Shown here: piece by piece, positions 402 to 31,566 of the stretch | How the letters are laid out: every line of letters begins with the position of its first letter | Position numbering within the stretch: position 1 is the stretch's first letter | From: Branchiostoma floridae | Lineage: Eukaryota; Chordata; Leptocardii; Amphioxiformes; Branchiostomatidae | DNA: 64,000 bases | Direction of reading: 5' to 3' | Assembly: GCF_000003815.2 (NCBI RefSeq) | Contig: NW_023365761.1 | Location: 1-64,000 of the forward strand | Made by a program: the position numbers and the translations under genes | The notes under the pieces: generated by a model | The model's database searches: none | Seen by the model: the letters and a program-made list of their open reading frames with translations, nothing else | Told to the model about the DNA's origin: nothing

Positions 402-3400
402 CTTTCAGTTCACATATGGAATCTGGCAGCTTCTGTAGGTAGTTATCGTGGCATGACAGACGCGACAGCGCCGGAAGCTGACTGATGGAGTCTGGTAGCG
501 TCGTCAGTGCGTTGTACTCCAGACACAGGTCCTGTAATGATGTCAGCTTACTGATGGTGCTGGGCACGGAGGTCAACTGCTGGCCATGGTCCTGTAGATA
601 GAGACATTATCCTTGTAAGAACTTTTAAAGTAAGATTTTAGAGTACTGTGCAACTTTGTGGAGTTTTAAACTTCAATGCATATTTTGGAATATCTAAATC
701 ATAACTCACTGTTTTAATCACCAAATTTAAGTGAGAAAATGTGACAAAAACATATTAATTACAACATTGCCACACTATGTTGTATTTGGAGTGAAAGTAC
801 ATTGAGATGATATTACTCTAACAGTTCATAACATATACTAAAGCAGAATAAACCAGGATTGCATGTTTCCAGCACCCACCACTCCTAAATCTGCTTGTTG
901 AGATGGACTAAAATCCCCCCCCCCCTTGTCCAAAAATTAAACGTCAATATATGACACAAAAATGTGACTGAGTACACATTTTTGTATGCTGGCCATTGCC
1001 TCTGGAGTTTGCAATTGATTCCATAGGATTTTATTTAGAAATGATAACATTACACCCTATCCAATCAGTCACCTTATTTTTGCCAAATCATACTTTTCAT
1101 AACCCCTTATCATATTACAAGAGGGCCTAGTGAAGTCCAGATAAGACTACATTCTACAGATTGGTGTTATTGCACCAAAGGTGTGCTAATATCTACACCA
1201 CAGTGACAATTCCTATCTCTACTACACCCCAAGTCTTACCAACAATCCACGGTATGTACTTGACTTCCAAATGCAGAAGATACAAGAAGGAAAACGGTCA
1301 AACCAAGACATAAGGAAACCACTTGTAACAATCTCCATTAACTACAAGATTCTTAGAAATCCTGCAAAGTTAACTATCTTCTTCTTCTTCTTCCTCGGAA
1401 GCCCACGTTCATCGTGTTGAACATTATGGCTTTTAAGTACATTAACATTATGACTTCTTCTAGTACAACAATAAAATAAAGAAAAAAACAACACATGACC
1501 ACTGCATGTCAAGAAAAAAAGATGTCAAAACTGTAAGATAATAGTTATAAACAGTGCAGTATCATAAAATTAATCTTTTTGGGGAAAAGTGATGACTTAT
1601 GTGTCTGTATCTGCATCGTAGCGGTTATTGTAAACACACACAAAGTTCATTCCCCTTTAAATTGTAGAGTGAACTTTGTGAGTGTTTTTAAATGAAACTC
1701 TTCTGTAAGCTTTTTTGTTAACACTCACCTTTATCCATAGGGTAACCTATATCCATTGTTTCCAAAAACAGCATTTAGGGATCTACGGTTGACGGAAGAT
1801 GGTTTCAAATTGCAATTATATATTGAAAATATTGCAGTTTGTATTCACTGGTTGTCGTCTTGACAATAGTACCTAAAAAGGCCTGTTTTCAAAGAACAAC
1901 AGAAAACTGATATAGATATCTCATGGATAAAGGTGAACTAATGTTAAGCTCATCTTTTTGCACTTAAGTACAGAACAATGATCATTTCACATGATAACTG
2001 TCTACGATACCTATTTCACAGGTATCTTAGCAAACTCTCACCTGTCCAAGGAAGAGCTTCTCCAAGCTTGGTAGGTTGCAGATAGCTTCTGGGAACTTCT
2101 CGAAGACGTTTCCGCTCAACCCCAACTCCTTCAGCTTTCTCAAGTTGGCCACCTTGAACAAGAAATATTCATACCTTCAAGAACCAAAGTTATCAACTGA
2201 GGACAAATGTGTTCAAAACTTTGAATTTTCTTAGACCTATGATTTCGTAGAGTGAAATTTAGCACAGTAATATACCAGAGTGCCTGCAATTTAAAAAGCT
2301 TGTTGCTATGCCCCAAGGTTGTTCATACTGGCTATACAGATACAGAAGCTGGTGTATGTGTTACGCCAATACTGGCCGTACAGATACAGAATGATACAGA
2401 AGCCGGTGCGTTGCACTGAAGGGCAGTTGTACTGGCTGTACATATATAGATACAGAAGCTGGTATGCTGCACTGAAGGGCAGTTATACTGGCTGTACAGA
2501 TACAGATATGGAAGCTGATGTGTTATACCGAAGGGCAGTTGTACTGGCTGTACAGATATAGATACAGAAGCTGGTGCATGGGATATGCCAAAAGGCAGTT
2601 TAATACACTGGCTGTACAGAGACAGATACAGAAGCTGGTGTGTTACACTAAAGGGCAGTTATACTGTAGAGATATAGATACAGAAGCTGGTGTGTTTTGA
2701 CAAAGACAGTTACACTGGCTGTATAAATACAGATACAGAAGCTGGTGTGTTGCACTGAAGGGCAGTTATACCATCTAATAGTATAAAGATGCAGATACGC
2801 ATACAGACCTCTTTCGGGATGTGGTACAAGTTGTTATCGTCCATCGCCAGGACCGCCAGATTACCCAGCATGCAAAGGGACACCGGCATCTCCTCAAACC
2901 GGTTCTGTGCAAAGTCGACAAACCGCAACCTCTGGAGACGCCCAAACGCTTTCGGCAGCGACTTCAAGAAGTTGCTCTTGGCGTACAACACCTCGAGGTT
3001 GACCAGCGCGCCGACTTCCTTCGGGAGTTTCTCGATCTTGTTGTTGCTGAAGTTGACCTCGCGTAGCTTGGCGAGGCGGCAGATGTCGGGAGGGATCTCC
3101 TTCACGTGGTTCCCGTGAAGTTCGAGGACCGCGATGTTTCCGAGCGCGCAGAGCTGCACGGGAAGGTGGTGGAAGAAGTTGTTCTGTAGATACACCTGGG
3201 ATGAGAGGCAGAGGAGAGAACGTTATTTTTTGTTATTTCAAGGCTATATCTAACTGTGGTACATGTTATTTCCTTTGCATAATTCAAGTTAACGCTAATT
3301 CACATTTATCCGTGGGGTAACCTATTAAAACAGGTTATTTAGGGACATCAAGTTGACAGAAAGTAGTTGCAAAATTGTGAAAATATAATTGCAATTTAAA

Positions 3401-17299: not shown

Positions 17300-20200
17300 C
17301 TAATGGTAAACAAACTTTTCCCTTCTGCCATGGTACTCCTTGTCGTTGAAGCAGAGGCGCATGCGCTCCAGCTCCTCGTGGCGATGCTCCTCGAGGATGG
17401 ACCAGAGCGATGACGTCATGGCCTGTTTTCTCCGCAGAATCTCACGAGACTCGGCGCGCAGGCGTAGGCACTTCAGGTGGATCAGGGCGTTCAGCTCTCT
17501 CGCGTTGGACCCGAGGACATCATCTAGCATACCTGGGAATAAAACAGAGCAATCAGTATTTGTCTCGTCACGAAAATGCAAATGACCACGTGCCAAATTG
17601 CCTTGCTTGATATGATGCAAGTGTCAGGCGTCAGGTGGTAATCAGATAACGGTCTTTTCTTGTGGCGGTACCAGAATGGGTCGATTGACGTTTAACGTTT
17701 AATCTGACTATCTGGGTGCCAAATTTGCATTTTCGTGACAAGACAAATGCGACAGTAACCCAACCGTTGACTGCAACACACATCGCCTCTCACCCACCCA
17801 GATCAATAATTTACCCAGGTACACCCATGATACAACTGATGACCCACTCCGGAGTCCCATTCTTACTACAGACCCATGAAATAGCCATGCCCCAGACACA
17901 CCCATGCTACCAGAGACCCATGCATACCAGACGTTGCAATGTCCCTGACCTAACCCGTGTCCCTGACCCACCCATGTTCCTAACCCACCCATGCCCATAA
18001 CTCTTCCATGTACATAAATCACCCATGGCCCTAATTCACCCTTGTCCCTAACACCCTGTCCATAACCCATAAATGACTTTACCCACCCATGTTCATAAAC
18101 CTACCATCCATGTCCATAACCCCCATATCCACAACCCACCCATCTATGCCCCAAAACCACCCAACTATGCAACTAGGGACCCACCCATTCATGTCTCTGA
18201 CCCACCCATCTGTGTCAATAACCCACCCACTCATGTCCCACTCATGATGACGAAAGCGGTCTTCGTCGACTCGACGGACGAACAACATGTCCCTGACACA
18301 CCCATCTATGTCCATAACCCACCTATAACCATAAATCATAACCCACCTATGTCCCGGGCCTCCGTGGCCAACACTGGTTGCAGCCGTGTGGTCAGTTCCT
18401 CCGCCATGTTGAGTCCTACCCTTTGCGGCAGGGAGTAGGTCCAGTACTCGGACCCGAAAAGCGCCATCTTGCGGTAGTGCGGGTTCAGCACCACACCTGC
18501 ATGACTCACGACCTGCGGAAACACGGATATTTATTGATATTTGACCGCAAGCTTTACTTTTTGTACTGTAGGTTTTGCGAGGTCATGGCTTTCAAAGTAT
18601 CATCAAAAAGAAACAAACTCTGCCGAAAGGGGAGAATGAGAGAAGAAGAAAGGGAAATGGAAGAAAAGGAGGCAATTTAAGAACCTAAAACTAATCCTGT
18701 ACCAGTTTCTCTCACTAACAAGATGGGTATACTTCCACTGGTGACAGACTGGAGTGTGGAACCCGATCAGTAGAGATGGGAAAGAGGAGGAAAAGGAGGA
18801 GAGATGAGTGGGGAAGGAGTAGAGAAAAGCCAGGAGAGAAAGGAGAGCGGAGAGAAAGGAGGAGAGATGGGAGAGAGGGAAAGGAGGTGAATGAGAGAGT
18901 AAAGGGAAAGGAGGAGACATGGGAGAAAGAAGAGAAGGAAAATGAGGAGATATGGGAGAGAGGAGAGAAAGAAGTAGAGATGGGAGAGAAGAGAGAAAGG
19001 TGGAGAGATGGGAGAGAGGGAAATGAGGTGAAATGAGAGAGAGTGAAGGGAAAGGAGGAGAGATGGGAGAGACAAGAGAAAGGAGGAGAGATAGGAGAGA
19101 AAAAGGATATAGGAGAGAAGAGGGAAAGGTGGAAAGATGGGAGAGAGGATATAAACGGGGAGATATGGGAGAGAAAAGAGAACAGATGAGAGATGGGAGA
19201 GAAAAGGGAAAGGAGAAGAGATAGGAGAAAGAGGAAGATAGGCAGTCCTGTCGGTACCTGGTCCGCAGCGAGCGCCATCATGACTCAGCCAGCTCCCGCA
19301 TTCCCCTGAAGGGCCGCGACCGTCACCTTACTGCGCATGCGGAATATCGCCTTCACCACGTCATCGATGGCTGTGATGTTAGCCCAAGATTCGGCAACGG
19401 CACATTCGGCATTCTCATGATGACGTTCAGGTGGATCCCGTTGCTGAAGAAGTTATGCCTAAATATGGTAGACATCAGACGTGTTATGACCAAATATGGT
19501 TAACGTCAGCACGTTATGCCTAAATATGGCAAGTATCAACATGCTACACCCAAACATGGTTAATATCAACATTTTACTTAGGAGAGAAAGGTGAGACTGA
19601 TAAGTTGATAAGGTAGGGAAGTAAATTTGATGAATTAATGAGTTAGTGAAGTAAAGTTCATTAGTTATGTCGAACTCACCGCCCATCAACACCACTATGG
19701 AACAGTATGGATCGCCAAGTTGATAAGTTAGTGGAAGTTGATAAGTTAATGAGAACGTGAAGTGGAACTCATCCACCCATTGGCACCACAATGGAACAGC
19801 CCGAATCCTGTCCTACCGTCACAAGATTGATAAGTTTAAGTGAATAAGTTAGTAAATAAGTTAGTGAAGTTAATGAGTTAATGGGTTAGAGATGTCGAAC
19901 TCACCCGCCCATCAGCACCACCATGGAACAGTCCGGATCTTGTCCCACCGTCACCATGTTGCTAAGTTAGTGAAGTTGATAAGTTAATAAGTTAGTGAAC
20001 TCACCCGCCAATCAGCACCACCATGGAACTGTCCGGATCCTGTCCCACCGTCAACAGAACCCGCTCCAGCCTCCTGCACTGCTCAGTACTCATGGCGCCG
20101 TTGTAGAAGTCGAAGTGCACGTAGCAGACTCCGTCTCGGCGCGTCGTCCAGACGTCTTGGAACGTCTTGGGTCTGGTGCCGTAAGGAAGGGGGTCGCAGT

Positions 20201-23200
20201 GGTTGATGGGAAGGGACGTGACGTCAGCAGACGGAAGGACAGATGTAGCGGGAAGCTTCAGACTGGTTTTCTTGGGGGAAGCCTGGGGGGGGGGCAGAGT
20301 ATCATAGTTTAAGCACGTTATAACATACAACGGGTGTACAGAAAGTGTGAAATTGAGGGAAATGGAACGTTTCATTTTATTTCGTTTCATTTAGCACTTT
20401 CTGTACACCTCCCACAGCACTAATCGCTAAGGTTAGGGGTGCACCCCGATCTTAGTGGATCAATGGTTTCCATGGGGGTTCCTGGAATAAGAATAACAAT
20501 AAATCTAAGAGGGCACTCAACAGTTTTATGAGGGTCAGCAAGGGGGGTCCCGAAAACGATTTACGCTAAATTCAGAAGAACCCCCTACGACTTTTACGCT
20601 AATCAAGGAAGGCAATTACACTAAATTCGGTCTACTCGCTACGAATTACGTAGATAAGACGGTTTTCCCTACGAGTTACCGGAAATGAAAATAGGTTGCC
20701 TACGCCTTACATAAAGAGCATGCAGACCACCTTTTATCCGTAATACTTTATGTACCCGCGTCATAGACCATGGGTGTCACGAATAGATATTACGTTCTGC
20801 TACCTTTTAAGAATTCTCATGACATGAGACTTCACCTTGAGATGTGAGATCCAGACGGCGTCTCCCCCTCCGCACGCCACAAGGACGGCGCCATTCCTCT
20901 TGGCGATGACGTCACCAGGGATGACGCGCCATGACAGCTCCTTCTTCAGACGCCGCACTACGTCAGCGTCGCCTTCTGCGCATGCGCCAAACAGCACAAC
21001 CTCGTGCTGGTGCAGGTGACCTCCAAGACATACTTCAAGACAAATCACATCAATGACAAAGTAACAAGAAAGGCAACATTTTCGAGAAAATGCAAGATGT
21101 AACTCGCCCCCATAAAATGAATGTACGGAACGGCGTCATACCGTTTGCCACAAAAGAAATATGATCTACATTGCTTATGCAAAGTAGACCACCATAAGCA
21201 TAACCCACATTCCATGGTATTCACCTTCCTTATACATTGAAGTATTGCATACTACACCAGGACAAATCCTTAGTGGAACAACCTCTCTGCCCACATTGTT
21301 GACGGTCCCTCACTTTAAGAGCTCGCTGCTTTTATCTCACACGCCACGTAGTTCAGACGCTACACCTCCACTTGCCTCCATCAGGCCTCCATATGGGGTT
21401 GTGGGGATCGTAGAATTGGGCAAAAAAGTCGAGAAATTGGCCAGGGGAGTCATGCGTTCTCAGACTGTTAGAGACTACGCCTCCTCCGTCTGCGTGATAT
21501 TCCTACCAGGAAGTTTGCAGACTATTGACTAGAACTGGAATATAAAATGGTACACAACAACCCTACAACTGACCTTGCTCTTGCAGACGGAGCACGCCTA
21601 GTGCACCTGGCTGGGAGTCGCAGGCGCGCACAGCTCGTGCAACGTCCTCTGCTGGCAGTGCCCAGTCGACTTGCCGGTCCTCCACTGTCAGTTTCCGCCT
21701 CAGCTCTCCTGTCACCTGCAGTAAGGAAACAATCAGATACGAATCCAGAACACTTACAGGTAAATGTGCAAAAGTTAGGTGTGACAGGTCGTTCAGTCCT
21801 CCAAATGACAGAATATGTACATTTTGCAACGATAGATGTGTAGAGAATGAAGTACATTTTCTTTTAGAATGCCCACTATACACCGAGATGCGCACATCTC
21901 TCATAAATACACTACAACTAGATAATGAATATGTGTTTTTAAGTAGGGAACAAATGTTCAACTACATTACAACGCACTTGAAAAGATTTGTAAATTTGTT
22001 CATACAAGTTTCAAAAAGAGAGAAGAGACTATGTAGATTTTAGATGATATAAGATGTAACCTGTTTCACGTATACTTAAGTTATCCAACCCAATGCCTTT
22101 AGCCCATGTTGGGCAGGAATATGCAATAAAGATCATTGTCATTGTCATTGTCAATATAACCAGCTGCTGCCGCGCCGCGTGCCCGTACGTGAAGCTGGTG
22201 TGTACATGTTACGCCAGCTATATAAATTCCGATACGGAAACAAAAGCTGGTGTGTAAAATACACCCAAGGGCGGCCATACCGGCTAAATAGACACAGATA
22301 CAGAATCGATTCATGCCATTAGAACTGTCATCATTAACTTCCGAAAATAATTTCATCTGGTTGGTAACACTAGTTCACCTATATCCGTGGAGTAACCTAT
22401 ATTCGTTGTTTAAAAAAATGGGTATTTATGGGTTTATGAAGTCGACGGACGGTGGTTTTAAGTTGTAACATTTTCTTAATATTTCACCGCCTGTCTACTG
22501 GACATTTTTTGATACCATGTTTTTAAAAACAACGAATATAGGTTACCCCGTGGAGAAAGGTGTGTGTCTGTGTACGAGTGGGAATTGGTGAAAAGTCACA
22601 TCTATAACCGTACCTCAGAGTTTGTGTAGTCTAGCGGGGTGGGGGGCGCATCTCGCTCAAAGGCGACTAGGGCGTGCAGCACGGCCAGAAGCGCCGCCTG
22701 GGTCACCTCCTTGCCGTACAGACTGGACTTGGTCGCCTGGCGGTTCAGTGGAAATTTGCAGGTGGCCCAAATGTCCCCCGCGTCCATTTCATCGTCAGCT
22801 TGCAGTACCGTCACGCCCCATTCGGTGGCGCCTTCCTGCAATGTAAACAGCGCAAGAAAATAAAACAACCTATTCTAACGTTAGAAATTAAACTTTCATG
22901 ATTATAACCGTTGGGCTGATTTTGACAGCCATCTTCAGGCAAACACTGACACACAACTTTAGCTCGGTGTTTGGCATTTACCTATTTATACAATCCCACC
23001 GCTGTCACCAATTATTAGGTTTAAGAGAGGGATTACGGTTGTGGTTCTGGCAAGACTGATCAGGGCCCTGGAAGGTCCTGCATTTATGGAGCTTAATCGC
23101 CAGGTGTACTCAGCATCAAGAAGGATGCACATTGCTGCACTAGTAAACACGTCTTGTCCTGTTTACATGAATGATGGCCCTCCATGGAAATCAAACTTTT

Positions 23201-24102
23201 AAATATTTGAAGGAGCCCTAAACTCCACAAGAGAGTGTTATTATCTAATAGATGTTAATTTTAGGAAGTAAAACAATCCTGCTATATCATATTCTACGAT
23301 AAAATACCTCATAGTTTCGCGTAACGTTACATAAAAAACTTCAGTATTGCGTTCAACTCTCAAAGTTAACTCTCAAAGTCTTTCTCTAAAAAATAGTGAG
23401 ATTGGGCGAAAAAAATTTAAGTAAACGAAAACAAGATGGCTAAAATTTCCAAATATACGCAATAAACATTGTGTAAAAGAACGAGAACTGAAGCGACGAA
23501 ACATGGTATCACAGCCAACAAGGCATTCATTCCTGCATTCAAGATGTGAACTAGCTAGTAAGTAAAGGTGACGCAAGTGTGGTAGACTGGTATCACCAAG
23601 GAGGTTAAAATCTTTGCTTTATAAATAAACCTCGCGTAATAGACCAGAAGACTAGTGAAATTTTCCAAAAAGGTTGCTGATTGTGAATACATTGATATTG
23701 GAAAACTATTGGGAAATGGCACTTCCTTCTGGAGTTTAGTACCCTTTAATTGGTCACTCTGTTAACTAAATATGAAGTAAATAGATAGATAAATTGATAA
23801 AACCCCACCTTCAGCGCCCAGTCGATAGAGGAGGGTCCCCTGTCCCCCGGGATGCCCGGATGCACGATGAGCACGGGTCGGGCGGGGTTGTTGTAGAGCC
23901 CGGGCGGGACCCGGCGGGTTAGGAACGGGCACAGCACCAGGTCCGGCTGGTCTGTCTCCACAGCCCGCGTCATCTCCTCGCCACGTGGGTCCTCGTGCAC
24001 CGTCACGTGATGCCCACGTGACACCAGCTCCAGGTACAACCGCTGGGACAGCCCGTTGAAGCCGTTACACAGGAAGGTGATTTTCAAAGGTTTTCCCGCC
24101 AT
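17300..24102 (-). CDS. hypX: HypX/HoxX-like formyltransferase-crotonase protein (exon 6 damaged)
   Basis: Eight exons: 23809-24102, 22614-22835, 21574-21715, 20836-21032, 20005-20282, 19258-19458, 18347-18512 and 17300-17532, about 577 residues, the usual HypX length. Residues 1-172 are a formyltransferase fold with HypX signatures: LCNGFNGLSQRLYLEL, VHPGIPGDRGPSSIDWAL, WGVTVLQADDEMDAGDIWA and SSLYGKEVTQAA. Residues 173-285 resemble the formyltransferase C-domain. From about 300 a crotonase-like domain carries HFDFYNGAMSTEQC, FFSNGIHLNV, GNAGAG, VVLNPHYRKM and FGSEYWTYSLPQRVG, ending DKEYHGRREKF. In bacteria HypX moves the formyl group of formyl-tetrahydrofolate to CoA and releases CO for [NiFe]-hydrogenase assembly. 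Animals are not expected to have that enzyme, so the role here is open. All junctions keep phase except exon 6, which has a 1-nt shift and a TGA. ATG 24102 gives the family N-terminus. Confidence 0.88.
17780..18346. repeat. ~19-bp CCCACCCATG minisatellite
   Basis: Many degenerate units of the type CCCACCCATGTCCCTGACC run through the last HypX-like intron up to the exon-7 splice donor. The short open frames on both strands here are period artefacts. Confidence 0.8.
18750..19245. repeat. purine-only minisatellite (GGAGAGATGGGAGAGA)
   Basis: About 500 bp of nearly pure purine on the plus strand, with units around GGAGAGATGGGAGAGA, in the intron just downstream of HypX-like exon 6. Both strands are open through it, but the Lys/Glu/Arg and Ser/Phe/Leu-rich frames are artefacts. 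Confidence 0.85.
19258..19458 (-). pseudogene. hypX: HypX-like exon 6 with a frameshift and an in-frame stop
   Basis: Entering in phase from exon 5, the frame reads HNFFSNGIHLNV and then leaves the family pattern near 19415-19424. The next frame immediately resumes it as ESWANITAIDDVVKAIF, so one base is missing (or two added). In that second frame the motif GNAGAG is followed by TGA at 19285-19287 where a glycine codon GGA is expected, and VMMALAADQ continues after it. Splice sites are intact. Either this allele is a recent pseudogene or the assembly has two errors within 140 bp. Confidence 0.75.
19560..20051. repeat. tandem copies of the HypX exon-5 3' end and its splice donor
   Basis: The last ~45 bp of exon 5 with its donor (19999-20051) recur as degraded copies near 19902-19957, 19769-19817 and 19677-19713. 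They are separated by TTGATAAGTTAGTGAAG spacers. The nearest copy keeps the donor and most codons. Confidence 0.75.
20520..20820. mobile_element. fragment of the GGGCCCC-ended element family
   Basis: Holds GGGGGGTCCC near the start and several ACGCTAAATTC words, as in the element at 29481-30706. It is in the HypX-like intron before exon 5. Boundaries are uncertain. Confidence 0.45.
21385..21470. repeat. dispersed repeat GGGGATCGTAG, copy 1
   Basis: GGGGATCGTAG, then GGGCAAAAAA and AAATTGGCCAG-like words, are shared with 34276-34360. Family not identified. Confidence 0.45.
21725..22161 (+). mobile_element. LINE 3' fragment with zinc-knuckle end and (CATTGT)n tail
   Basis: Plus-strand translation shows the Cys/His-rich end typical of many LINE reverse transcriptases: ICTFCNDRCVENEVHFLLEC, followed by PLYTEMRT. 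The 3' end is AATAAAGATCATTGT with CATTGT repeated. It is 5'-truncated and sits antisense in the intron between HypX-like exons 2 and 3. Separate from the reverse transcriptase at 28520-30950. Confidence 0.75.
22187..22312. repeat. short array of the TACAGATACAGAAGCTGG repeat
   Basis: Two degraded units, with AAGCTGGTGTGTACATG, GATACGGAAACAAAAGCTGG and a CACAGATACAG end, directly after the LINE tail. Confidence 0.55.
22364..22564. mobile_element. hairpin MITE family A, copy 4
   Basis: Begins GTAACACTAGTTCACC and ends with GGTTACCCCGTGGAGAAAGG. It is about 50 bp from the donor of HypX-like exon 2. Confidence 0.75.
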
Positions 24103-25593
24103 TTTTCTCGGATCGGGGGCGGAAAAGTCAACCCACGGGAGGGGGGGGGGGGACTGAGGTCTGCTTGCCGAGGCTGCTGGGATGCCGCCCCGCGTGATGG
24201 TTGCTGGGATAGTTTAGAAGGCAAGGCATGTTGGGATGCCTGTCGCTGTGGCTGCTGGGATGCTGTCCACGGTGACTGCTGGGAAGGCGTTTCGCTGCAA
24301 TGGCGTCGCGGCTACGCGAGTTGTGACCTTCTGCAGGTACGACACGAAGCGCCAGGCGGCGCGGCTGCTAATGCCGGTGACTCTACTGATCATTTTTCCT
24401 GAGATAAAAAGAAAAGATTGCAAAGAAGACAAAGTTGGAACGGGAGTCACTCAGTGTCAGCAAAAACTTTATCTTACGCTTGCTGTGAATGAAAACTTGC
24501 GAGGGTTTGAATTATTACGTTGTTACTTACTACATTTGAAAATTTTGAAAATGGGAAACGGAAATTATTAGGATTTGATGTGACACGGGCACACTTACCT
24601 CATATGCCCTGTGAGTAGTTGGTGGGGTCACGTGGTCTTTTGGTTACGTGTGCAACGCATGCCGAGTGCGTGCCGACAGTCGTTTTTTTGTCGGTAAATC
24701 GCACTTCGGGTACCTTCTGCATCCGTCGGAAATCTCCGTCGGAACATTCGGCACCCACTCGTGCAATCCCGGGTACAACGTACTCAAATGTCGGGTCACA
24801 CTCGGAACACCAACCCCGGCAGTTCAGCCCGGGCGATCCGACAACAATACCTTGGCCTACCGCCTATGGACTGACCTCACTCTTGGACCTCTCTCTCATT
24901 TTCTCCAAGACTTACGGACTTGCGGTTTTCGGCGTCATATTCGTAACAAATCTACCTACCTGTAATATTAATATGATTTTTGTTAAGACTTGTCGAAATT
25001 TTTCTAGATTATCTCAAAGTTACGACATACAAAAATGGGGAACGTATCCTGAAAGTGCCTCTGTTTCGGCGAATTTTCTACAAGTTTTCGCCAGAGAAAG
25101 ATATGGTGCCTTCCTTTTACACCCCTCTAAGGTTTCTACATAAAAAGCAATTGATGGCACATGTTTGGACATGTTTGAGAGGCAAAGTTTCGCAGGAATT
25201 TTGAATCGGCAAATCGAGCCGCCATTTTCCTAAGTGCCGCACATGAGGCGTTTTGTCGTGAATGGACCAGACCAAATTCTCACAGGTGTGTGCCCGTGTG
25301 TGAGGATTTACGAAACATGTTAACAACACAGGAAGAACTACCCACAGCTTATGGCGATCAACAGGCACATAAACAACAAGAGATGTTGAAACAAATACAA
25401 TAATGGTCTCAATCTGACCCCATAGGTTGAGTACGTAAAGCCGACTGACTATCTTAGAATGTACAGCACATGTACGCGTATACGGTAATGTATATTCAGT
25501 CTATCTGACAAATTTCTGCTAATTTTCCAACAACGTTTGGATTTCTATGGCGACTAAAAACGATTTGGTTCTTTGTGCGAGGAGATTTTATCA

Positions 25594-28519: not shown

Positions 28520-29480
28520 CTACCTACCTACCTACCTAGTCCCTTGACCTCCAGGTCGTTGGGGGGACAAGGCAGACATGAAGATAGAGAGTTGCCTCCA
28601 GGTGTATCTTTCCCTAGCCAGGGTTAGTCTCTCCTGTAGGCTGAGGCCCGTCCAGTCAGTGATGTTGTCCTGCCAAGCTTTGCGTTGACGTCCGCGACGA
28701 CGCCCTCCCTCTACTGTTCCCTGCAGGATTGTCTTGGCCAGGTTGTTGTGTCTGGTAACATGCCCAAACCACTGCAGTTTGCGTCTTTTAACTGTCCCTA
28801 AGATTGGTTCTTGAGGGCCAACAAGGTCGTGTACCTGTTCCCGCACATACTCGTTTGTGATGTGTTCATAGTACGAGATGTGAAGTAGCTTCCGCATGCA
28901 CTTCATCTCAAAGGCTTGGATTTTTCTCTCTGAGGATGCCAGAAACGTCCAGGTCTCACACCCATACAACAGTATGGACACAACTAGGGTCTTGTAGAGC
29001 TTGTACTTGACAGTAAAGCTGATGTTGTTGGATTTCCAGATCCTGGACAGACGAGCCATTGCAGATGTTGCCATGGCAATCCTCTTCTGTACTTTTGTCC
29101 GACTGGTACCATCCTTTGTAATAGTCCCTCCCAGATATGTAAATGTTTCCACCTCTTCCAGTTGTTCCCCATTCATGAAGATGACCGCATGTGTTTCGTC
29201 CCTGCTGTTCACCATCACCTTGCTTTTCTCGGTGCTGACCTCCATGCCAAACGACCCAGTACTCTGTGTTAACTTGTCTGTAAGGTCTTGGAGTTCAGTG
29301 TTGTTGCCAGCGAGAAGGTCGATGTTATCTGCAAAGCGGAGGTTACAGATGCGTCTGCCACCAATAGAGATGGAGGTGTGGTGATCATACAGTGTGTCCT
29401 GCATGATCTTCTCCAGGTACAGGTTAAACAAGACTGGCGACAGCAAGCATCCCTGGCGAACGCCGACTGTTGTCCTGAAG
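28520..29480 (-). mobile_element. LINE reverse transcriptase, 3' portion
   Basis: An open frame of about 300 codons, ending at 28532, with reverse-transcriptase landmarks: LSPVLFNLYLEKI, the catalytic box FADNIDLLAG (FADN in place of YADD), FTYLGGTI, LLYGCETW and the distal RKLQWFGHVTR and GRRRGRQRKAWQDNI. A TAGG microsatellite begins at the stop codon and probably forms the element's 3' tail. The last Asp of the catalytic box is Asn, so this copy is probably inactive. The rest of the domain continues beyond an insertion at 30707. Confidence 0.85.
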
Positions 29481-30706
29481 GAGGGCCCCCAAGGGGGGGT
29501 ACCGACAACGCTCTACGCTAAATTCGGGAGGGCCGGCTACGTAATACGCTAAATTATGGACACTTTATTACGCTCTACGCTAAATTACGAAATTTCATAA
29601 TGCATTATGCAAATTTTTATTGTCCTTTGGCTGAACTCCGCCGACGGCAGAACATGTGAAGATGAGATCTAAACAAAACTGATAATTCCATCAATAAGAT
29701 TAAAACTTACTTCTAAAGACGTCTTGCTGGCCAAAGGCGGCGACAGCAAATTTCTCATGTGACGTAATTTTCAGCACTTGTAGCACCGGAGGCGCAACAA
29801 TCCTAGGCCGTCCGGGGGCATGCTCCCCCGGGAATATTGTGAAATCCTGACCCTCTGAAACGCCATTTTATGCATTTTGAAGGGCAAAGTTTGCTCACAG
29901 ACTAAGCTAAGTTAAATAGCATCCAATGAGAAATTCACAAGGTTTTAGCTTTAAGCTGGGCAACGCCCCCAAACGTCATTTTCCGATTTCGAGTGCCGAA
30001 AGCACGAACAGTCGAACTGTCGCATGGTAGGTACGGGAAAATTTGGAAATTTTTACTCTCTGAAACACCATTTGCTGCATTTTGAGGGGCAAATTTTGCT
30101 GGCAGGCATATGCTCAATGTAATGACATTTCTGTCAGAGAAACGTCTTTGAGGGCGACGAGCGCCGGAGAGTCGTGAGCGCCGGAGGCTAGGCCCAAGCC
30201 GTCGCAAGCCTTGGCAAGGGCCGCCCGGCGCCCGGAGAAAAATTGAAATCTCGACCCTCTGAAATGCCATTTCCTGCATTTAAGGGGCAAATTTTGCTTA
30301 TTAACTAAGCCAAGGTCGGTAAAAAGATTTCTACTAGTTGGGGGACGACGCTCCCGCAACATATTTTCACCATGTCCAGTGTCGAGCCATAGCAAGGAAT
30401 GTCCGGCGAAATTTTGAAATCTGGACCCTTTGAAACGCAATTTCCAGCATTTTCGCGGGTAAAATTTGCCGGTAGACTAGTTAAGTTTAATGAAACTTTG
30501 ATTACGCTTGACGAAAAATTAATATGAATTACGTTTTACGGTAAAATCCGGTCAGCCTCTACGTAATACGTTAAATTAAAGGGGCCAATATCGCTCGACG
30601 CAAAATGCACCGATTACGCTCTACGTTGAATTCGAACGGTCCCGCTACGGAGTACGTAGAATTAAAACCGCCGATTACGCTCTACGGAAAAGGGCTTTGG
30701 GGCCCC
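29481..30706. mobile_element. hAT-like non-autonomous element inserted in the LINE
   Basis: It interrupts the reverse transcriptase frame. CCTGAAG stands on both sides (8 bp with one mismatch). The ends are GAGGGCCCCCAAGG and the inverted CTTTGGGGCCCC. Next to the ends lie many ACGCTCTACG and TACGCTAAATT words. The centre (29845-30480) has four ~195-bp tandem units starting CCCTCTGAAACGCCATTT. No transposase frame. Confidence 0.7.
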
Positions 30707-30950
30707 CCTGAAGAATTCCCCCACTTTGTTGTTGAGGAACACTGCACTGGACGCACTCTCGTACAAAGCTTCGATGGTCTGTATAAGGCCCTCTTCGACT
30801 CCAAAACTTCTCAAGACCCACCACAAGCCGTCATGCCACACTCTGTCAAAGGCCTTTTTAAAGTCGATAAAGTTGTGATAAAGGTCTTGTTGGTGCTGCA
30901 TGTGTTTTTCAATGATGACCCGACAGTCGAAAATTTGACTTTGCGACATC
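30707..30950 (-). mobile_element. LINE reverse transcriptase, 5' portion (truncated)
   Basis: Minus-strand frame with RVIIEKHMQHQQDLYHNF, then the palm motif DFKKAFDRVWHDGLW. It continues, after the inserted element, into the frame at 28520-29480. Nothing from earlier in the domain is visible beyond about 30950, so the copy is 5'-truncated. Confidence 0.8.
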
Positions 30951-31009
30951 AATTCATATTTGTCAACAGTTATTAAATAATGGTAGAGTTCCTTTTTTTG
31001 CATGGCGTG

Positions 31010-31566
31010 ATAAATGTATTGACCTAGGTGGATAGATATGGAATCATGACATGATAAAGGTACATTGAAGGTGCCACCACTTGTGTGTGGTAGAGATATA
31101 TTTGACTTAAATGTCTATATTTGACTTACATGATTTTCTTCATTATGTGTAGGCCTAGGACATGTTATAACAAAATGGTACTCATCTTCGTCAGGCTTGA
31201 AAATTTGCGCACAGGTGTGCATTTGCATCGAACGAGTTGCCCCCTAAGGTTAAAGTGGCCACTTCAGGCCTCGTTAAAAAAACTGTGAGCCGAAGGCGCT
31301 AGCCGTCGCAAGGGGGGTACGGAGATATTTTGAAATCTGGACCCCCTGAAACGCCATTTTCTTCATTCCAGGGGTACATTTTTATCTCGAAATTAGACCT
31401 CTACGAATTTACGTTGCAGTAACAGTTGATAGTTATGTGTCCAATCACCAGCTATATGTTCTTGTAGCCTGACTAAATCCGCGTTCCTTGCGGCCGACCC
31501 AACAGTTGCCGCAACCTGATACGCCATTAACCCCCGACAGACAGAGATTACAAGTATAAATACAGG
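31010..31566. other. gap between LINE and sialyltransferase gene
   Basis: Holds one isolated unit (near 31330) of the tandem repeat found inside the 29481-30706 element, and otherwise nothing recognisable. It includes any 3' untranslated region of the sialyltransferase. Confidence 0.4.

Follow-up and report, generated by a model that had tools for sequence, protein, structure and literature searches.

In bacteria, HypX (also named HoxX) acts in [NiFe]-hydrogenase maturation and, according to PMC12134894, yields carbon monoxide (CO) from formyl-tetrahydrofolate (formyl-THF) via formyl-coenzyme A (formyl-CoA). PMC6802093 proposes H74, D80 and D109 as the formyl-transfer triad, names several CoA ligands and reports loss of HypX function in Ralstonia when the residues equivalent to Y416 and E426 are mutated; catalytic residues are numbered here as in Aquifex HypX. 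We describe a HypX homologue of the lancelet Branchiostoma floridae, found in the first 64,000 bases of contig NW_023365761.1 (C203:1-64000 in our numbering, hereafter the window), and two intact paralogues elsewhere in the genome. The animal protein resembles the HypX/HoxX of hydrogenase maturation (Aquifex aeolicus, PDB 6j0p; Cupriavidus necator) in domain order and in five catalytic residues, and exons 1-5 share 45% identity with Aquifex HypX in a pairwise alignment. Unlike those proteins, it has a presequence-like extension and introns, lacks the C-terminal tail, comes from a genome without a HypD or hydrogenase match, and falls outside a 27-member hydrogenase-linked clade.

It can also be compared with the HypX of some bacteria whose genomes likewise have no HypD and [NiFe] large-subunit matches (Paenibacillus alkalitolerans, a Kordia metagenome-assembled genome (MAG), Marinifaba aquimaris and Chromobacterium piscinae) and which keep the same catalytic residues; the presequence-like start of the animal genes distinguishes them, as none was noted in the bacterial core sequences. 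With 10-formyl-THF dehydrogenase and methionyl-tRNA formyltransferase it shares the formyltransferase domain and, by prediction, the folate substrate. Neither of these enzymes has a crotonase domain. The animal protein scored only 61.6 and 71.3 bits against the NCBIfam model fmt, far under the cut-off of 201.5, and ECH_1 is present in the intact copy L100. Most likely, with a probability that we put at roughly 0.55, the intact copies encode a mitochondrial enzyme that would convert 10-formyl-THF through formyl-CoA to CO, a chemistry suggested by homology and residue conservation.

A HypX gene in eight exons

The window gene lies on the minus strand from 24393 to 17300 and comprises eight exons and seven introns. 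All seven introns are GT-AG, with mutually consistent phases of 0, 0, 1, 0, 2, 0 and 1. The exons are:

Exon 1, 23809..24393, minus strand: presequence-like N-terminal extension (24393-24103) and start of the formyltransferase domain (24102-23809)
Exon 2, 22614..22835, minus strand: formyltransferase domain, with the D109 equivalent (MDAGD)
Exon 3, 21574..21715, minus strand: formyltransferase C-domain, with the DSQPGA motif holding the S194 and Q195 equivalents
Exon 4, 20836..21020, minus strand: formyltransferase C-domain
Exon 5, 20005..20282, minus strand: linker and start of the crotonase domain, with FYNGAMST and the N306 equivalent
Exon 6, 19258..19458, minus strand: crotonase region, with a frame change and an in-frame stop in the window copy
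Exon 7, 18347..18512, minus strand: crotonase active site, with the Y416 and E426 equivalents in NPHYRKMALFGSEYW
Exon 8, 17300..17532, minus strand: C-terminal part of the crotonase domain and stop codon, ending FVYH without the bacterial C-terminal tail

In phmmer searches, window exons 1-5 (378 residues) matched Aquifex HypX (PDB 6j0p/6j1f) with an E-value of ~4e-64, exons 7-8 with 4e-18, and the pieces of exon 6 together with exon 7 with 1.3e-25. Chance resemblance to HypX is excluded. Formyl_trans_N and Formyl_trans_C of Pfam were found in exons 1-5, and ECH_1 remained below its cut-off on exons 7-8 alone (15.2 versus 27 bits).

An earlier note on this DNA had read the HypX architecture of formyltransferase, C-domain and crotonase in eight exons, and its coordinates, exon count and phase-matched GT-AG introns were confirmed. 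Two of its statements need amending. It gave the gene span as 17300..24102; the exon boundaries are right, but neither intact copy keeps the in-frame ATG at 24102. Both run on into a shared N-terminal extension, and the gene therefore starts further upstream. It also described the eight exons as encoding the full HypX architecture; all eight are present, but the frame is not open, as exon 6 (19458-19258) contains a frame change as well as an in-frame stop. The counterpart of the extension in this copy begins at an in-frame ATG (24393) and is interrupted by a TAA in the same frame (24216-24214). A run of 12 C intervenes between this TAA and the HypX core, which makes this third break less certain than those in exon 6.

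The introns carry repeats of their own. The intron 5 region (19679-20056) contains partial, decayed repeats of the exon 5 3' end together with its splice-site region, at spacings of 94-132 bases, and minisatellite-like arrays occur within introns at 17953-18143 and 18817-19234, the second being purine-rich on the plus strand.

Two intact paralogues

A HypX protein search of the same genome (513,431,437 bases in 431 contigs; the best 17 candidates were scored) returned 16 exon matches in three places, five in the window and five and six at two loci on contig C3, which is 34,247,348 bases long. The two C3 loci, L100 and L101, lie on the same strand about 0.35 Mb apart. After splicing, both read from ATG to stop without interruption, encoding 657 and 646 amino acids, respectively, and their introns are those of the window gene, except that exon 1 of L101 is divided by an additional intron. 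L100 matched Aquifex HypX with an E-value of 1.1e-115 over residues 93-655, and Formyl_trans_N, Formyl_trans_C and ECH_1 all passed their Pfam cut-offs in L100, in HypX order over the full length. Exon 6 is open in both copies and identical between them (66/66 residues), compared with 313/369 identical residues in exons 1-5 and 96/127 in the less conserved exons 7-8.

L100 and the window copy share 80.9% identity; this divergence and the presence of matches at three places only ruled out an allelic haplotig of a C3 copy. Just downstream of L100, the end of the last HypX exon recurs twice in partial form (L100 2026-1976 and 1901-1851).

Catalytic residues

Conservation was assessed in an alignment of 48 rows, comprising 31 labelled as linked to hydrogenase genes, 13 unlinked, three animal and one of unknown linkage. 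The equivalents of H74, D80, D109, Y416 and E426 are kept in all three animal copies. The same five residues are kept in 13/13 unlinked and 31/31 linked rows, except D80, which is kept in 30/31 linked rows. Among the ligands of the CoA phosphates, Q15, S194, Q195 and N306 are also kept in the animal copies; the bacterial rows vary at such ligands too, chiefly at R9, S194 and Q195. The catalytic residues speak for the predicted route to CO over formyl-CoA release alone.

N-terminal extension

L100 and L101 start 77-88 residues ahead of the bacterial-like core. The first 40 residues of the extension contain seven arginine or lysine residues and no aspartate or glutamate; this arginine-rich composition is similar in both open copies, and the 18-residue hydrophobic moments are 0.56 and 0.57. 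We infer a mitochondrial presequence followed by a linker rich in Q, S and P. No presequence-like start was seen in the 44 bacterial HypX rows, which were trimmed at the core motif, so that the statement concerns the core start. Four annotated bacterial HypX proteins do begin at the core, their lengths equalling those of the core rows (Cupriavidus, 597; Bradyrhizobium, 566; Rhizobium, 561; Mesorhizobium, 561 amino acids).

Hydrogenase genes in the lancelet genome

Exon-by-exon scans, whose sensitivity is limited, gave no match in the lancelet genome to HypD (PF01924) or to the [NiFe]-hydrogenase large subunit (PF00374), and the same scans were positive in 4/14 and 5/14 control genomes, respectively. 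Within the limits of such scans, this agrees with the premise of the earlier note that the animal has no hydrogenase biology.

Predicted chemistry and its alternatives

According to the model that we favor, the N-terminal domain of animal HypX would move the formyl group from 10-formyl-THF to CoA, and the crotonase domain would decarbonylate the resulting formyl-CoA, releasing CO and CoA. The mitochondrial formyl group would derive mainly from serine. SHMT2 and the MTHFD enzymes form the route from serine to the mitochondrial formyl group. The CO might serve in signaling, act on a haem or metal target, or be a means of removing one-carbon units, rather than support hydrogenase assembly.

Several observations weigh against this model. 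The animal copies lack the CoA-phosphate ligands R9 and R131, the first of which is rare in bacteria as well, and the C-terminal tail carrying R542 is missing. The splice sites of the C3 genes were picked by GT-AG boundaries and reading frame rather than from transcripts. The hydrophobic moments of the open copies were reached by 6.7% and 9.9% of shuffled sequences (1.0% for the window piece), so the presequence reading rests more on charge, the absence of acidic residues and conservation than on amphipathicity. Finally, exon-wise scans can miss genes: the scan for PF00551 gave eight exon matches elsewhere and none at the three HypX loci, and the hydrogenase negatives are accordingly not absolute.

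Some of these observations suit a different chemistry, in which the formyl group passes to CoA and the product is hydrolysed or handed on as formyl-CoA or formate, so that the enzyme, alongside 10-formyl-THF dehydrogenase, would act as an overflow valve for one-carbon units and make no CO. The N-terminal triad is kept, the formyltransferase part also resembles 10-formyl-THF dehydrogenase (best E-values 1.8e-13 and 2.9e-16), and the second step could be affected by the missing tail and the differences in the CoA ligands. We nevertheless consider this alternative the less likely of the two, because the crotonase residues required in Ralstonia are invariant in all animal, unlinked and linked rows (3/3, 13/13 and 31/31), and crotonase exon 6 is fully identical between L100 and L101, whereas exons 1-5 are not.

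The breaks in the window copy raised the question of whether the C3 genes are also unexpressed relics of a family decaying as a whole in this lineage. The ratio of nonsynonymous to synonymous substitution rates (dN/dS, Nei-Gojobori method, NG86) was 0.181 between L100 and L101 over 569 codons of the whole core, and 0.186-0.188 for the three pairs over the 502 codons of exons 1-5 and 7-8, excluding exon 6. All three pairs of copies are thus under purifying selection. On the window branch, 41.4 nonsynonymous changes were counted over 1141.7 sites and 70.6 synonymous changes over 364.3 sites, much the same ratio as elsewhere in the family. Relaxation is thus no greater there, and either constraint lasted until recently or the breaks are assembly errors. 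With two frames fully open, general decay is improbable even though one copy is broken in three places.

A still less probable idea is that the animal protein works for an undetected metal-carbonyl enzyme, whether of the [NiFe] type or another. PMC12134894 describes HypX-made CO as a metal ligand in bacteria; the HypD and large-subunit scans of the lancelet genome, with the sensitivity stated above, speak against such a partner.

That the gene reflects contamination, or DNA inserted from a bacterium in the very recent past, has next to no probability, despite clear bacterial relatives (the best share 43-45% identity), and is ruled out by the seven phase-matched introns and by two paralogues 0.35 Mb apart on a 34-Mb contig, whose introns match those of the window gene apart from the extra one in L101, in keeping with the leucine-rich-repeat and retrotransposon pieces in the same window. 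The earlier note had excluded contamination from the phase-matched GT-AG introns, and both this argument and its assignment of an animal gene to HypX are borne out by the checked introns, the L100 match to Aquifex HypX, the location of the intact copies and 135 homeodomain matches in the genome. All listed homeodomain matches are on contigs numbered up to C19; 16 co-oriented ones lie within 0.47 Mb on C16 and were grouped as 14 genes, these being matches at the homeodomain level only. This arrangement and the size of the genome are consistent with a lancelet. A GFP-family scan gave no match in this genome, nor in the controls.

The leucine-rich-repeat coding pieces lie at 106-606 and 2710-3222 of the window, and two reverse-transcriptase fragments, probably from retrotransposons, at 28532-29512 and 30662-31114, all on the minus strand.

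HypX in bacteria with and without hydrogenase

To place the animal genes, we compared bacterial HypX loci. A scan of genome contigs with two peptide patterns yielded 64 loci, of which 36 (L009-L044) were HypX and the other 28 matched the query in part only. On plasmids, a DNA search gave two chance-like matches of 67 bases, and a protein search gave 40 records; the surroundings of 11 were examined, and Hyp genes adjoined HypX in 6/11 and not in 5/11. Two short-pattern scans of viral contigs found no HypX relative. The 36 contig and 11 plasmid loci were compared with eight Hyp and hydrogenase proteins of Cupriavidus, over flanks ranging from almost none to 8 kb. A Hyp or hydrogenase neighbour was present in 29/47 loci, including 16/17 Streptomyces loci, and absent from the remaining 18 (L009-L012, L014, L018, L020, L023, L024, L044, L073, L075, L077, L081, L083, L015, L017 and L042), the last three of which were set aside as of unknown linkage.

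HypD and the [NiFe] large subunit were then sought in 13 whole genomes and three plasmid records. Both were lacking in 6/9 unlinked genomes tested, three of the six being MAGs that may be incomplete:

L009, Paenibacillus (Paenibacillus alkalitolerans): unlinked, neither found
L011, Kordia MAG: unlinked, neither found
L012, Marinifaba (Marinifaba aquimaris): unlinked, neither found
L018, Methylococcales MAG: unlinked, neither found
L020, Thiotrichaceae MAG: unlinked, neither found
L024, Chromobacterium (Chromobacterium piscinae): unlinked, neither found

The other three unlinked genomes (L010, L014 and L023) have both, as do all four linked genomes tested. For the records covering plasmids only, Cupriavidus has both, and Acaryochloris and Mycetohabitans rhizoxinica have neither. 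At an E-value of 1e-60, HypX occurred in 21/369 genomes of the Chromobacterium class and in 2/395 genomes of the Kordia phylum. HypD was found in 20 of the 21, on the same contig in 18/20. Unlinked HypX is a minority among the bacteria sampled, and these figures weigh against a broad hydrogenase-free branch.

Two unlinked settings may be recorded. In a Bacteroidetes MAG (L010, 4801-6243), HypX without hydrogenase neighbours adjoins a serine dehydratase gene, a possible link to serine one-carbon flow, in a genome that does carry HypD and [NiFe] hydrogenase. On the megaplasmids of the endofungal Mycetohabitans (L075 and L083), HypX without a hydrogenase neighbour lies near an acyl carrier protein, an acyl-CoA dehydrogenase and an amino acid-carrier ligase set. 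Published work adds that HoxX of Chromobacterium violaceum was identified only in control gels and not under cyanate, with serine hydroxymethyltransferase decreased (PMC3927592), that hoxX appears in a table of genes with predicted quorum-sensing control (PMC4167859), and that Acaryochloris and Chromobacterium HypX are named in a supplementary tree legend (PMC2974642).

Phylogeny

A first selection of rows excluded L044, 12 near-copies from Streptomyces and rows shorter than 450 amino acids (L019, L031, L042 and L080). The present tree has 46 rows and no inferred root; it omits the broken window copy, L121 (which is the L024 gene) and the near-copies L013, L017, L029, L082 and L075. Nineteen rows added from Chromobacterium-class genomes were labelled linked because their genomes hold HypD, which in L113 and L118 is on another contig; the 21st genome of that set, G100, gave a partial match without a locus.

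A branch at 100/98 separates 27 rows, 26 labelled linked and one unknown, from the two animal rows, 13 unlinked rows, three Streptomyces rows and L113. The animal genes are not nested within the main hydrogenase-linked clade in this tree, and may be sister to it. The bacterial rows nearest to them by path are the unlinked L009 and L012, then the linked L102 and L103, and mean identity to the animal genes does not separate the groups (41.0% for linked and 41.1% for unlinked rows). Holding the animal genes with the linked rows was not rejected by the approximately unbiased (AU) test (p = 0.206 with 33 rows and 0.239 with 46 rows), nor was holding them with Streptomyces (p = 0.104, 33 rows); the tested groups were defined once a tree had been seen. 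A single clean group of unlinked HypX and animal genes was dropped after the 19 rows were added and the AU tests were run. L113 (genome G090) groups with unlinked rows, and HypX may accordingly have another use in some HypD-bearing bacteria; L118, with HypD likewise on another contig, falls with the linked rows.

Significance

HypX is known from bacteria; the lancelet form differs in its presequence-like extension and in coming from a genome where no hydrogenase was detected. The two intact paralogues, the extension and the bacteria that carry HypX without a hydrogenase go beyond the earlier note. Automated 'HoxX-like' names probably exist in sequence databases. Among the literature matches listed, in a search whose coverage mostly left out subscription papers, there was no functional study of a eukaryotic HypX, no paper on an animal homologue as judged by title or opening of the abstract, and no functional study of hydrogenase-free HypX use in bacteria. 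Haem breakdown is the animal source of CO known to us. Wittenberg (1960, 1962) is said to have traced the CO of siphonophore floats to serine and folate. According to PMC6820529, gas-gland cells make CO, and the Wittenberg papers are among its references.

Tentatively, and at rather less than even odds, we propose that some animals make CO on purpose in mitochondria, from serine-derived 10-formyl-THF through a HypX-type enzyme and independently of haem oxygenase, that the same enzyme could be the source of CO in the siphonophore gas gland, and that hydrogenase-free HypX does likewise in some bacteria. The bacterial results point to a hydrogenase-free use of HypX. For siphonophores, whose floats are filled with CO, the proposal would supply a candidate for the enzyme that makes this gas, a hypothetical link. 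If true, it would give animals a second source of CO, linked to folate and independent of haem, and would tie one-carbon metabolism directly to a haem-binding gas.

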